A stretch of 24,572 bases of DNA, taken from IMG/VR virus record IMGVR_UViG_3300022725_000007, positions 1 through 24,572 of that record, one strand, 5' to 3'. This document shows, one piece after another, positions 1 through 12,700 of the stretch. This DNA is from a virus. Each line of letters opens with the position of its first letter. Positions within the stretch are counted from its first letter, which is position 1. Under the pieces are notes generated by a model. It did not search any database and was not told the DNA's origin. It saw only the letters and a program-made list of their open reading frames with translations. Made by a program: the position numbers and the translations under genes.

Positions 1-140
1 TGGCGGCGATGACGGGCTACGGCGCGGCGGCCCGATGGTCCGAGCTCGAGCGCGGAAAGCGCGCTCCGGGCGGCGCCGTGATCCGCCTCATCCGGGCCTA
101 TCTGGACGGCTACAGACCGCCAGACTGGCCGTCTACCTGA
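1..140 (+). CDS. C-terminal fragment of a helix-turn-helix-like phage regulator (partial)
   Basis: An open frame enters from the left edge (codons in phase from base 3) and stops at TGA 138-140. The visible 45 residues include GYGAAARWSELERGKRAPG and then LIRAYLDGYRPPDWP. The pattern of a helix with W-x-E-x-E-R-G-x-R-x-P, followed by a helix ending in a tyrosine-rich tail, resembles the end of Xre/Cro-type DNA-binding domains, where a recognition helix and a 'wE.G.r.P' turn precede the last helix. The gene start and any N-terminal domain lie outside the window. Its stop overlaps the end of the convergent leftward gene by 8 bp, a compact phage-like arrangement. It may regulate the control region to its right, but that is inference. 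It could instead be a non-regulatory DNA-binding protein. Confidence 0.55.
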   Translation, partial: AAMTGYGAAARWSELERGKRAPGGAVIRLIRAYLDGYRPPDWPST

Positions 141-403: not shown

Positions 404-431
404 ATTTTATGGGTAAGACGTTAACGGTAAA
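404..431 (-). promoter_or_regulatory. Leftward promoter candidate for the 133-381 gene
   Basis: On the minus strand a TTTACC -35-like element (plus coordinates 426-431) and a TAAAAT -10-like element (404-409) are 16 nt apart, just upstream of the leftward gene. One copy of the TTAACGGT box (421-428) overlaps the -35 element, so a protein bound to that box could block this promoter. Assignment is by consensus matching only. Confidence 0.4.
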
Positions 432-438
432 TCGTCAA

Positions 439-460
439 GACCGGAAACTGGTTTCCGGTC
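439..460. promoter_or_regulatory. Perfect 22-bp palindrome, operator candidate
   Basis: Two 10-nt arms, GACCGGAAAC and its exact complement, flank a 2-bp centre (TG). A perfect dyad with almost no spacer is better suited to binding a dimeric repressor as DNA than to forming an RNA hairpin. It lies upstream of the leftward promoter candidate, in the divergent control region. Confidence 0.5.
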
Positions 461-468
461 GCCAGATG

Positions 469-484
469 ACCCCTCATATGGGGT
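469..484. promoter_or_regulatory. Short perfect inverted repeat ACCCC-N6-GGGGT
   Basis: The arms ACCCC (469-473) and GGGGT (480-484) flank TCATAT, which is itself nearly self-complementary. It stands 8 bp from the 439-460 palindrome. It may be a second operator or half of a composite site. Confidence 0.35.
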
Positions 485-499
485 ATTTGCGCCCGATGG

Positions 500-526
500 G
501 GGGGTTAGCGGATTCCGCTAACCCCC
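500..526. terminator. Strong 12-bp stem-loop without a clear U tract
   Basis: The arm GGGGGTTAGCGG (500-511) pairs perfectly with 515-526 around an ATT loop. The stem is very stable, but only TTAA follows on the plus strand and ATCGGG on the minus strand, so it is not a classical intrinsic terminator either way. It could block transcription between the divergent units, be a pause or antiterminator-loading hairpin, or be a DNA-level palindrome. Confidence 0.4.
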
Positions 527-572
527 TTAACGGTCGTTCGGATTTACCGCTTCGGTTTGAATGATTTCAATG

Positions 573-581
573 TGTTATAGT
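573..581 (+). promoter_or_regulatory. Extended -10 promoter candidate for the late operon
   Basis: TG-T-TATAGT at 573-581 is an extended -10 element in the only AT-rich stretch of the region (about 550-596). No good -35 sits 17 nt upstream, which extended -10 promoters tolerate. A transcript starting near 588 would carry the 597-660 hairpin in its 5' leader ahead of the NusG-like gene. Confidence 0.4.
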
Positions 582-596
582 CTAAATATGGGTTAT

Positions 597-660
597 CGGT
601 CTTAACGGTCTACAAGCTTCTAAATTACATCAATCATATGCTTGTATACCGTTAAGACCG
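597..660. repeat. Long 21-nt inverted repeat upstream of the antiterminator gene
   Basis: Bases 597-617 and 640-660 are complementary over 21 nt with one mismatch, separated by a 22-nt AT-rich loop. Each arm holds a TTAACGGT box. It may be a double operator, since two inverted boxes would bind a regulator dimer or tetramer. It could also be an RNA hairpin at the head of the late transcript where an antitermination factor loads. No T tract follows, so it is not a simple terminator. Confidence 0.6.
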
Positions 661-744
661 CTTTGACCCTCTTGCCCCGATCCGCGTCTTGAGGCATCCT
701 GTTCATGCCAAACCCCGAGCGACCCCGAGGCAGAGGTCGACGTA

Positions 745-1347
745 GTGACATACCTGGACCTGAATATCGGTGACGCGGTTCCCGCCAGCGGAGCGCGGCC
801 CGCCGTGTGCGGAAGCCTGTCAGAGCCCGAGTGGTACATCCTGCGCGTCCCCGGCGGTAGGGAGTTCGAGGCACAGGCCCGGCTCGACGATATCGGGGTC
901 CATTCCTGCTTTCCGAAAAAACAGGTCTCGCGGCCGGACAGGCGGGGGAAGTTGTCGAGGGTCGACGTGCCGGCGGTGACGGGGTACGTCTTCGCGAAGT
1001 TCTGGCAGATGCCGGTCTGGTCGGAGCTTCGTCGGCGTCGGTTGATAATCGGGCTGGTGTGCAAGGAAACACCCTTCGGCCCGGTGCCGTACCGGGCAAC
1101 CGAAAACGATGTCCGGACATTCATGGGCATCCCGACCGTTGAGGAAGAAATGCAGGCGCAACGGCGCGAGGCGTTGCGGGTCAGGCCCGGCGATCAGGCG
1201 CGGGTGCTGGTGGGCAGCGACATGGTGCTGGTGGTCAGGGTGCGGGACGTGTCGGGCGGTCGGGTGTTCTGGGAAACGGATAACGGCATTCCGGGCTCTA
1301 CAGCCGAAAAAAGGTGCGAGAGACTTGCGCCGAACGGCGCGGCGTGA
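745..1347 (+). CDS. NusG-like transcription antitermination protein
   Basis: The protein of 200 residues starts at GTG 745, with AGAGG eight bases upstream. Residues about 30-95 look like a NusG N-terminal (NGN) domain: [19 protein letters not shown], a '[10 protein letters not shown]' segment, then VTGYVFAKF. These match the NusG/RfaH pattern 'Wy.l....g.E..a...L...g...f.P......r.......lf.gYvF'. Residues about 150-185 ([10 protein letters not shown] followed by VSGGRVFW) resemble a KOW-type beta-barrel. NusG paralogues bind the RNA polymerase clamp helices and suppress pausing or termination. Its position at the head of the packaging genes, downstream of a hairpin-rich leader, suggests that it drives late transcription through the internal terminators. 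That role is inferred from family and position; the NGN call itself is fairly secure. Confidence 0.8.
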
Positions 1348-2102: not shown

Positions 2103-3333
2103 CGCCGACCTCGCGCAGCTCGAATTCGACTGGCGATTCTGGGCGCGGCCGGAACAGATTGCACCGGATGGCGACTGGCTCACATGGGTCATCAACGCCG
2201 GCCGGGGCTTCGGCAAGACGCGGGCCGGGGCCGAGTGGGTGCGGGAACAGGTCTACGTCGGCTGCCAGCGGATCGCGCTGATCGGAGAGACGTATAAAGA
2301 CTTGGTGGAGGTTATGTGCTTCGGAGACAGTGGGCTCGCGTCCGTGTTTCCGGATCACGAGAAGCCGAAGATCGTGGCCAACCCGAACGTGCAGGTCACG
2401 TTCCACACCGGCGCGATCGCCTTGGGCTACAACGCGACCCAGCCGGCGCAGCTTCGCGGCCCGCAGTTCGACGCCGCATGGTGCGACGAGCTGGCCAAGT
2501 GGCGCTACGCCCGCGAGACATGGGACATGCTGCAATTCGGCCTGCGTCTGGGGGAGAGGCCGCGCGCACTGGTCACGACCACGCCGCGGCCGATCCCCGT
2601 CCTGCGGGAGATCATGGCAGACGAAACGACCGTGACGACGCGGGGCAGCACGTTCGACAATGCCGGCAACCTCGCCGGATCGTTTCTGCGCAAGATCAGG
2701 GACCGCTATGAGGGCACGCGACTGGGCCGGCAAGAGTTGAATGCCGAGATCCTCGACGACCTGCCCGGCGCGCTCTGGACGCGGGATATGTTCGACGCAT
2801 ACCGGATCGGCAAGGCGCCGGACATGTCGCGCATCGTGGTTGCGGTGGACCCGAGCGGAACGGCGGGCGACGAGGATGATGGCGACAGCATCGGTATCGT
2901 GATAGCGGGCCGGGGGGTCGACGGGCGCGGGTATGTTCTGGCCGACTGGACGTGCAAGCTGAGCCCGGATGGCTGGGGCCGCCGGGCAGTCGCGGCCTAC
3001 AGGGAATTCAAGGCGGATCGGATCATCGCGGAACGTAACTACGGCGGGGCGATGGTCGAGCACGTCATCCGCACTGTGGACAAGTCGGCAAGCTACAAGG
3101 AAGTCGTCGCGTCGCGCGGAAAGGTGGCGCGGGCCGAACCGGTCGCGGCGCTCTATGAGCAAGGCAAAATAAGCCATATAGACGCATTGCCGGAACTTGA
3201 AGATCAGTGTTGCCTGATCGGCCCGGACGGCTTCATCGGCGAGGGCTCGCCTGACCGGGCGGATGCGCTGGTTTGGGCTTTGACCGAGTTGATGCTGGAC
3301 GGCTCGACCTACGACTGGAAAGGCGCGATATGA
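2026..3333 (+). CDS. terL: Terminase large subunit (ATPase and nuclease)
   Basis: The protein has 435 residues from GTG 2026, with AAGAGGT about 9 nt upstream. The ATPase domain shows a Walker A at residues 59-66 (GRGFGKTR), a Walker B ending D154-E155 (FDAAWCDE) and a coupling motif TTTPRP near 184-189. The RNase H-like nuclease domain shows D275 in VAVDPSG, E336 in IIAERNYGG and D413 in [10 protein letters not shown], a complete acidic triad. The length is normal for this Terminase_6/GTA-like group. The protein pumps DNA into the prohead through the portal and cuts the concatemer. Its stop overlaps the portal start (ATGA). Confidence 0.95.
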
Positions 3334-5171
3334 CGAAGCCGCACTACCGCATGACCGCATCGGGCGATATTATGCCCGCGATCCGTGCGGCGGACGGGTT
3401 TCAGAACCTTGTCGCGAACATGGGCACGTCGCGCGACAAGGCGGCGGCCAACGGCTACATTGTCGCGCCGCTTTCCGACCTGGACTTGCTCAACGCTTAC
3501 CGCGGATCATCCGTGGCAAAGGCGGTTGTCGATTATCCTGCCGACGACGCCTGCCGGGAGTGGCGGGAGTGGCAAGGGGATGCACGGCAGATCACCGCGC
3601 TTGAGGCTGAGGAAAAGCGCCTCGGCGTGCAAGCCAAGGTTCGCGATGCGCGCATCCGGTCGCGGCTTTACGGCGGGTCGGCTATTTTCATCGGCACCGG
3701 CGACGCCGACACCACCAAGCCGCTTGCGCCGGAGCGCATCCGCAGGGGCGGCGTCAAATACCTGACCGTGCTGGACCGGCAGGAACTTGGCGTTGAGCGG
3801 CTGCAAATGGACCCGTCCCTGCCCGGCTACGGCAAGCCGGAAATGTACCGCCTGACGGGCGGGTCCGGGCGGATCGTGGATATTCACCCGTCGCGCCTGA
3901 TCGTGTTCACGGGCGATGATGTGCCGCACAACAGCACGGCCCAATCGCTGCACGGCTGGGGCGACAGTGTGCTTCAGACGGCCCTGGAAAAGGTCGGTCA
4001 CCTCGACGGCACGATGGCCAATGTCGCAAGTCTGGTGTTCGAGGCGAAGGTCGACGTAATCAAGGTAAAGGACTTCACGCAAAACCTGCGGGACGGCGGG
4101 AGCGCGTATGAGACGCTGATGCTGAAGCGGTTCGGGCTGGCGGCCACGGCTAAGGGCATCAACGGCGCGCTGCTTCTGGATGGTGAGGAAGACTATCAAC
4201 AGAAGTCGGCCAGCTTCGCCACCCTGCCGGACGTGATGGACCGTTTTATGCAGATGGTCAGCGCGGCCAGCGGCATCCCCATGACACGGCTGTTCGGCAT
4301 GTCGCCGGCGGGCATGAATGCGACCGGCGATAGCGACATGCGGAACTACTATGATCGTGTGAAGCAGGAACAGACGCTCGACATCGAGCCGGCCATGCAG
4401 GTGTTTGATGAGTGCCTGATCCGCTCGGCGCTCGGGTCGCGGCCCGAGGAGCTGCATTTCAACTGGCGGTCGCTCTGGCAGATGAGCGAAAAGGATCAGG
4501 CCGATGTCGCGATCAAGCTGGTTCAGGCCGCCGAGGGGATGGAGCGCATGGGCGCGGCCTCGATGGATGCGGCGGGTCGCGCCCTGGTCAATGCCCTGAC
4601 CGAGATAGGCGTGTTTCCGGGGCTGGAATCGGCTATCGAGGAATATGGCGAAGGTGAGCCGATCGAACGAGAAGAGGTGGACCCGTTGACCGGTGATCCG
4701 GTTAAGGCGTCAGACGCCTCGCCGCGCACGCTCTATGTGCGTCGGGATGTGGTGAACGCCGAGGATATCATCGAGTGGGCAAAAGGACAGGGTTTCAAGA
4801 CCACGCTGCCGGCTGATGACATGCACGTCACCATCGCGTTTTCCCGTGAGCCTGTGGACTGGATAAAGGTGGGCGAGGCTTGGGATGCCGAGGTCAAGGT
4901 GGCCAAGGGCGGTCCGCGCATGATGGAGCGGTTTGGCGAGGCTCGTGTTCTACTGTTCGCCTCATCGCAGTTGTCATGGCGACATGAGGAAATCAAGGGT
5001 GTCGGGGCGTCGTGGGATCATCCGGAGTATCAGCCTCACATTACGATCTCCTATGACCCGGGCGCACCGGACCTGAGCGAGATAGAGCCGTACGCCGGCG
5101 AAATCATCCTCGGGCCGGAAATCTTCGAGGAAATCAACCCGAAGTGGGCAGAAGGGATCAAGGAAAAATGA
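3330..5171 (+). CDS. Portal protein (DUF1073/Acb1-like) with C-terminal 2H phosphoesterase domain
   Basis: The protein has 613 residues from ATG 3330, with GGAAAGG about 5 nt upstream and an ATGA overlap with terL. Residues about 1-440 look like a DUF1073-type portal: DGFQNLVANMGTSRDK, then VVDYPADDACREW, then IPMTRLFGMSPAGMNATGDSD, and HFNWRSLW. After an acidic linker (about 440-470), residues 473-613 contain two H-x-T motifs: H499 (HVTIAFS) and H570 (HITISYD), 71 residues apart. That is the 2H phosphoesterase signature also used by the anti-CBASS nuclease Acb1 of T4, which cleaves cyclic nucleotide messengers. The portal forms the dodecameric DNA gate. The extra domain may give immune evasion, but activity is inferred from motifs alone. 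Confidence 0.88.
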   Translation: MTKPHYRMTASGDIMPAIRAADGFQNLVANMGTSRDKAAANGYIVAPLSDLDLLNAYRGSSVAKAVVDYPADDACREWREWQGDARQITALEAEEKRLGVQAKVRDARIRSRLYGGSAIFIGTGDADTTKPLAPERIRRGGVKYLTVLDRQELGVERLQMDPSLPGYGKPEMYRLTGGSGRIVDIHPSRLIVFTGDDVPHNSTAQSLHGWGDSVLQTALEKVGHLDGTMANVASLVFEAKVDVIKVKDFTQNLRDGGSAYETLMLKRFGLAATAKGINGALLLDGEEDYQQKSASFATLPDVMDRFMQMVSAASGIPMTRLFGMSPAGMNATGDSDMRNYYDRVKQEQTLDIEPAMQVFDECLIRSALGSRPEELHFNWRSLWQMSEKDQADVAIKLVQAAEGMERMGAASMDAAGRALVNALTEIGVFPGLESAIEEYGEGEPIEREEVDPLTGDPVKASDASPRTLYVRRDVVNAEDIIEWAKGQGFKTTLPADDMHVTIAFSREPVDWIKVGEAWDAEVKVAKGGPRMMERFGEARVLLFASSQLSWRHEEIKGVGASWDHPEYQPHITISYDPGAPDLSEIEPYAGEIILGPEIFEEINPKWAEGIKEK

Positions 5172-12167: not shown

Positions 12168-12700
12168 CACGGCAGGCGGGGCTTGGCCCGGCCCGGCCGG
12201 GCGTGGCGAGGCGAGGCAAGGCGCGGCAGGCATGGCCTGGCGAGGCTCGGCACGGCAAGGCATGGCAGGCGGGGCTCGGCGTGGCAAGGCAGGCGGGGCG
12301 CGGCAGGCATGGCGGGGCTGGGCAAGGCGCGGCCAGGCTGGGCGCGGCAAGGCAAGGCAGGCGGGGCAAGGCACGGCAGGCATGGCCTGGCGAGGCAGGC
12401 GGGGCGCGGCAAGGCGTGGTTCGGCTTGGCTAGGCCAAGCAGGCGGGGCGCGGCTGGGCACGGCAGGCGGGGCAAGGCACGGCTAGGCCAGGCATGGCAC
12501 GGCTAGGCAGGCAAGACAAGGCACGGCGTGGCGGGGCAAGGCAAGGCAGGCAAGGCTTGGCTTGGCTGGGCCGGGCTCGGCGGGGCAAGGCAGTCGCGGC
12601 CTGGCGCGGCCCGGCATGGCAAGGCAGGGCTTGGCGTGGCAAGGTAAGGCAAGGCAGGCAAGGCAGGGCTAGGCATGGCGCGGCTAGGTAAGGCAAGGCC
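12168..12700 (+). repeat. GGCNN pentamer array of about 105 units
   Basis: The 533 bp are built almost wholly from units GGC plus two variable bases. Nearly all 16 dinucleotides occur as the variable part (AA, AC, AT, GG, GC, GT, GA, CT, CC, TT, TC, TG, TA and others). A 4-base unit, GGCA, recurs and often comes just before GGCGG or GGCAT. Rare exceptions include GGTTC, GGTAA, GACAA and one 9-base unit near 12590. A 21-base identical segment starts at 12225 and again at 12375, exactly 150 bp apart. The constant GGC with free variable bases is unlike a simple slipped microsatellite and implies selection on the triplet and its spacing. It lies between the cassette genes and the terminator, so it would be transcribed. 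Confidence 0.95.

Follow-up and report, generated by a model that had tools for sequence, protein, structure and literature searches.

What is the function of a short non-coding region that is crowded with copies of one DNA word and lies directly in front of the packaging genes of a phage? The window analysed here, a 24,572-base IMG/VR phage fragment, contains such a region of 363 bp. We consider it to be probably an iteron-type origin of phage DNA replication that is recognised by the replication protein Rep, because in related phages the repeated boxes change together with the predicted DNA-binding C-terminal tail of Rep.

A single 9-bp box occurs nine times

The original prediction, made from the window alone, described a region with four octamers and dense dyads, far above chance. 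This description holds: the octamer TTAACGGT is found four times in the window (421+, 527+, 602+ and 648-), all within 421-655, versus an expected count of 0.18 over the whole window, and four or more copies occur in 0 of 100 dinucleotide shuffles. The dyads are present as well. They are not independent of the octamers; both are direct or inverted copies of a single 9-bp box, [GC]TTNNCGG[TA], whose consensus is post hoc, defined after inspection of the sequence. Nine copies are located at 420-656 (region 382-744), where the rest of the window predicts 0.34. With the looser pattern [GC]TTNNCGG, 1000 shuffles of the region resulted in a mean of 0.56 and a maximum of 4 copies. The features of the region and its neighbouring genes are as follows.

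3..140, plus strand: 3' end of an XRE-type helix-turn-helix gene (phrog_14076), whole in the related locus L003
133..381, minus strand: gene for a small DUF7303 protein (Pfam PF23978, 8.8e-8), adjoining box 1
420..428, plus strand: box 1, GTTAACGGT
440..448, minus strand: box 2, GTTTCCGGT, left arm of the 22-bp dyad 439-460
451..459, plus strand: box 3, GTTTCCGGT, right arm of the 22-bp dyad 439-460
504..512, plus strand: box 4, GTTAGCGGA, left arm of the central dyad, position conserved in the related locus L166
514..522, minus strand: box 5, GTTAGCGGA, right arm of the central dyad
526..534, plus strand: box 6, CTTAACGGT
592..600, plus strand: box 7, GTTATCGGT, head to tail with box 8 (9-bp period), conserved in L166
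601..609, plus strand: box 8, CTTAACGGT, within the left arm of the 21-nt inverted repeat
648..656, minus strand: box 9, CTTAACGGT, within the right arm of the 21-nt inverted repeat
541..650, no strand: candidate unwinding element, an AT-rich stretch between and across both groups of boxes
672..720, plus strand: conserved leader with a TTG motif and a GCCAA..CCCG motif, from an alignment of 7 leaders
745..1347, plus strand: gene for a NusG-like transcription antiterminator (Pfam NusG 3.9e-8; phrog_6386 7.1e-13)

The dyad at 439-460 has 10-nt arms with 100% complementarity, the dyad at 490-536 is built around the core GGGGGTTAGCGG / CCGCTAACCCCC, and the inverted repeat 597-617/640-660 matches at 95% over 21 nt; further dyads are weaker. 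The boxes form two groups (420-534 and 592-656) around an AT-rich stretch. Here the AT content over 100 bp reaches its maximum for the window (0.67 versus a mean of 0.363; windows starting at 541-571), and the same holds in all four records tested, the window and 3 of 3 related phage records. The densest repeats also coincide with the box region in three of these four records. The window is the exception: the exact-repeat density of its box region is exceeded by 51 of 809 windows of 330 bp, 28 of them outside a separate GGC tract. The latter is an intergenic tract of about 530 bp (12170-12700) that consists of degenerate NNGGC pentamers, with 103 GGC versus about 25 per 530 bp window-wide and 84 of 102 gaps of exactly 5 nt. 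Three whole phage records show no switch in GC skew at their boxes.

The NusG-like gene is followed by the small and large terminase genes, which start within 1 kb rightward of the boxes, and then by portal, capsid and tail genes. The portal gene (3273-5171) carries in the same frame a C-terminal anti-CBASS Acb1 domain (PF23474, 2.1e-44, residues 485-627). The NusG-like protein of the window had no match among phages by tblastn, nor in the scan of genome contigs; a blastn search with the box region returned no plasmid match and, among phages, one 27-nt match (E 0.3).

Related phages carry the same or other boxes at the same place

The original prediction required the boxes to be conserved in relatives, and they are kept in both L003 and L166. 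The former is a twin of the window (NusG protein 99% identical). The latter, part of the 41-kb phage record G003, is more distant (terminase 72%, NusG 61% identity); its octamers are found at the same place, the boxes stand out as islands of identity when both regions are aligned, and [GC]TTNNCGG occurs 9 times versus 0.66 expected. Among viral contigs, the pattern GTTATCGGTNTTAACGGTNTAC (A-type) is found only in L079 (the same locus as L003) and L286 (the same locus as L166); it is absent from all 394 genomes of the family to which G001, a Rhodobacteraceae MAG, belongs. The contigs of the window and of L003 both end before any rep gene. Between contig edge and boxes they contain the XRE and DUF7303 genes, in L003 also another small frame, and no contig extending L003 leftward was found. 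At the start of the DUF7303 gene, L003 differs from the window by one base (L003 position about 650-660) and lacks the in-frame ATG, reflecting either a sequencing error or a different start.

Eight boxes of the window's consensus are also found in L074, adjoining a cut gene. Here, CCGCAAACG repeats (117-270) are located just past the gene end cut by the contig edge and shortly before terminase-like genes; the array looks like a further candidate origin of the window's kind. Pairs of the octamer occur in L055, L113 and L212, of which L055 appears unrelated on reading.

Other relatives have different repeats at the corresponding place: CGATTATT in L165 and L175, the word ACAGTTCGTA in L244 and L245, CTATTTGC-type repeats in L248 and a TGTCCAA type in L251. 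In L246, L249 and L250 (48-51% Rep identity) no clear array and no over-represented repeat was found. NusG-like genes follow in L244, L245, L248, L249 and L251, as well as in L166 and L175.

The repeats change together with the C-terminal domain of Rep

A rep gene is located upstream of the repeats in L166, L165, L175, L244, L245, L248 and L251, separated from them by extra frames in L165 and L175. In L166, L165 and L175 it encodes a protein of 800-815 aa with Prim-Pol (PF09250) and DUF3987 domains (Pfam). The C-terminus of the L166 protein is predicted to fold into a winged helix (pLDDT 90.9) that resembles winged helices in the PDB with Z up to 11.1 (top: VIA); a PDB sequence search with Rep gave no match. 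The Rep proteins of the relatives are predicted to possess a C-terminal dsDNA-binding domain, as is characteristic of SaPI/PICI-type modules. The phage of the window presumably has a Rep of the L166 type, encoded to the left of the window.

The comparison of L165 and L166 is the most direct. The two are 94.5% identical over 2487 bp, a match that stops at the final Rep codons ahead of the winged helix, and 92.1% identical over 2782 bp starting just before NusG. The single unmatched block consists of the last approximately 60 Rep codons and the intergenic box region: the helicase cores are 98% identical, the winged helices 33%, and the repeat similarity is 0.04. Since the NusG and terminase genes are in the matched part, neither NusG nor the small terminase explains the change of boxes.

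The same association is found across loci. For 26 non-redundant loci (30 before removal of near-duplicates, L285 having been omitted) repeat similarity tracks winged-helix identity with a Mantel r of 0.90, a statistic that ignores phylogeny. The partial r given the core is 0.68 (0 of 5000 permutations, phylogeny being outside the model), and the core given the winged helix yields r = 0.11 (p = 0.10). Leaving out the large host-genome group reduces the set to 11 loci, with r = 0.74 and a partial r of 0.73 (p = 0.0002). The repeat region was defined as 0-420 nt after the rep stop, or 250-670 nt for L165 and L175 to account for the intervening frames. An over-represented 7-mer just downstream of rep was found in 24 of 31 loci at p <= 0.05; in L261 and L269 the top 7-mer is CGCGCGC, which is not a box. 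By comparison, the swap and the Mantel tests together suggest that repeat specificity in the relatives is set by the C-terminal domain of Rep.

Host genomes and named phages

Among the 394 genomes of the family, 20 contain a related Rep, one of them being G001 itself; among 385 genomes from the class, matches were found only in G001 and G737. The other 19 host-genome loci have, by eye, CTTTCAA/CCTTCAA-type repeats directly after rep, with ACTTCCGTCAA / ACTTACGTCA-type repeats instead in L273 and L274; in two of the 19, L257 and L267, repeats did not exceed shuffles. The next gene in these loci is not NusG. In L264 a test identified it as RuvC-like; in the remaining 18 the following coding sequence looks the same by eye.

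From 156 records of named phages with a match, 17 were picked by hand. In eight of them the primase gene is immediately followed by a strong array with an over-represented 7-mer; the other nine have no over-represented repeat there. The array words are as follows.

RHph_TM3_3_14B (Rhizobium phage), AP-16-3: AATTCCAAA
phiAxp-1, Axy18, Axy19, shaaii_LB5: TGTTTTCGGT
nyashin_LB6, Lucius: CATACAAC

The phages phiAxp-1 and nyashin_LB6 have a common array layout, with words that differ throughout (by eye); their Rep proteins are 85.8% identical overall and 68.5% at the C-terminus. A term search of the phiAxp-1 genome paper (PMC4764938) found no 'iteron', and the sole mentions of 'repeat' and 'origin' concern other matters. 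Clusters of 8 boxes of the window's consensus are present in phiAxp-1, Axy18 and Axy19. The winged helix of phiAxp-1 appears unrelated, so the code is not one-to-one and similar words with different readers are possible. The phages nyashin_LB6 (Achromobacter, L299) and Lucius (Sphingomonas, L300) have CATACAAC-type repeats in common and Rep C-termini that are alike by eye, which we regard as a lead on the recognition code.

Origin or another kind of site

As an origin, the region would function as follows. Through its C-terminal winged helix, the Prim-Pol/DUF3987 primase-helicase Rep, encoded left of the window, would bind the 9-bp boxes. It would then load on the AT-rich DNA between and across the box groups 420-534 and 592-656, open the duplex there and prime DNA synthesis. 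The origin would be placed just before the NusG-like antiterminator and packaging genes. Sequence comparison establishes the array with its AT-rich core, its place behind rep in relatives and its co-change with the winged helix; from these we infer that Rep binds the boxes and that replication starts in this region.

The same comparison cannot by itself separate an origin from an operator bound by Rep. In the case of an operator, Rep bound at the boxes would repress or activate transcription, either its own or that of the late operon led by NusG, coupling replication to late expression. Their position just upstream of the conserved leader and the NusG gene is consistent with this, and the co-change of Rep and boxes is explained equally well. 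Three observations argue against it: in the 19 host-genome loci the array next to rep is followed by a RuvC-like gene and not by NusG; an AT-rich core would be expected for an origin, whereas an operator has no need of one; and no sigma70-like promoter was found on the plus strand at 300-800. We consider a purely regulatory site rather unlikely. Overlapping divergent promoters, which had also been proposed, receive little support: the only sigma70-like match is on the minus strand (431..404), with 0.4 expected by chance, and no terminator-like site was found alongside. The leader at about 672-720, which is outside the module swapped between L165 and L166, may contain the NusG promoter and transcript start.

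It had also been suggested that the region looks like a master switch for late genes, with the partial regulator at the left edge (XRE) as its binder. What remains of this is an array of protein-binding type directly before the NusG and terminase genes; the boxes track the Rep winged helix and the 19 host-genome arrays lack NusG, which makes a master switch less likely. A second role of the boxes in late transcription is possible. An operator of either the XRE or the DUF7303 regulator is very improbable, even though both genes adjoin the boxes in the window and in L003. XRE is rejected as the binder, since it was not found in G003 despite the same boxes, and L034 and L043, with a 61%-identical XRE, have neither octamer nor box cluster. 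As for DUF7303, the DUF7303-like neighbour in L175 adjoins CGATTATT boxes, and a rep-like gene is near in only one of 79 other DUF7303 loci (L080-L158), which also speaks against the protein as a general companion of origins.

A packaging site (cos/pac) bound by the small terminase would suit the terminase genes less than 1 kb to the right, yet is highly improbable: the comparison of L165 and L166, with NusG-terminase DNA 92% identical and wholly different boxes, leads us to reject it, and arrays next to rep also occur without an adjacent terminase. Least probable of all are RNA hairpins acting in the NusG leader; the RNA fold of 597-660 is far better than shuffles (z -10.1), but the matching stretch of L166 reaches z -2.8, with pairing retained at the boxes and lost beyond, and there is no Rfam match; we reject an RNA leader.

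Comparison with known replication modules

The preferred reading as an origin draws on the layout, which is like that of SaPI/PICI origins and unlike the stem-loop proposed for pRN1 and BIP-1. According to PMC7581432, SaPI Rep, a self-loading initiator helicase, recognises iterons directly downstream of its own gene via its C-terminal domain, and PICI origins consist of an AT-rich region flanked by two sets of iterons (PMC6092414); two such groups are found in the window (420-534 and 592-656). SaPI and PICI are satellites, whereas here whole tailed phages are concerned; their helicases belong to the DUF927 and Primase_Cterm/D5 families (PMC7581432), whereas here Prim-Pol is fused to DUF3987; and, unlike in SaPI/PICI, the array here precedes the NusG-led packaging operon.

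P4 alpha likewise combines primase, helicase and a C-terminal DNA-binding domain in one protein that acts at repeats (in part after PMC4234260 and PMC6092414). The P4 primase is of the Toprim type (PMC4234260), whereas the proteins of L166, L165 and L175 have the Prim-Pol domain PF09250. The pRN1 protein ORF904 and phage BIP-1 show the same domain composition, with Prim-Pol, helicase and winged helix in one protein and an origin just downstream of the initiator gene. For these, PMC4234260 proposes a large stem-loop and reports no iteron origin; here the box array is conserved, and a conserved large stem-loop was not found (the stem has z -10.1 in the window and z -2.8 in L166). A literature search, with most subscription journals outside its scope, found no work joining DUF3987 with iterons, or phage primase-polymerases with iteron origins. 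Since the design of the array resembles known origins, we do not regard it as a new kind of system.

Implications

To our knowledge, most replication origins of tailed phages are unmapped. For many Prim-Pol/DUF3987 phages, cultured ones such as phiAxp-1 among them, origins can be predicted purely from sequence by the layout of a rep gene, matched iterons and the next operon. As a tentative proposal, more likely wrong than right, the Rep winged helix and its matching iterons may constitute an exchangeable cassette that is swapped as a unit between near-identical Prim-Pol/DUF3987 phages and sets the origin compatibility of co-infecting phages; in the lineage of the window, box-bound Rep may in addition govern the adjacent NusG antiterminator, such that the origin would act as a switch from replication to late expression. 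The swap between L165 and L166 and the change between phiAxp-1 and nyashin_LB6 are ready natural experiments for studying the choice of DNA word by a winged helix, and the same swaps bear on whether the type of origin decides which phages can co-replicate.
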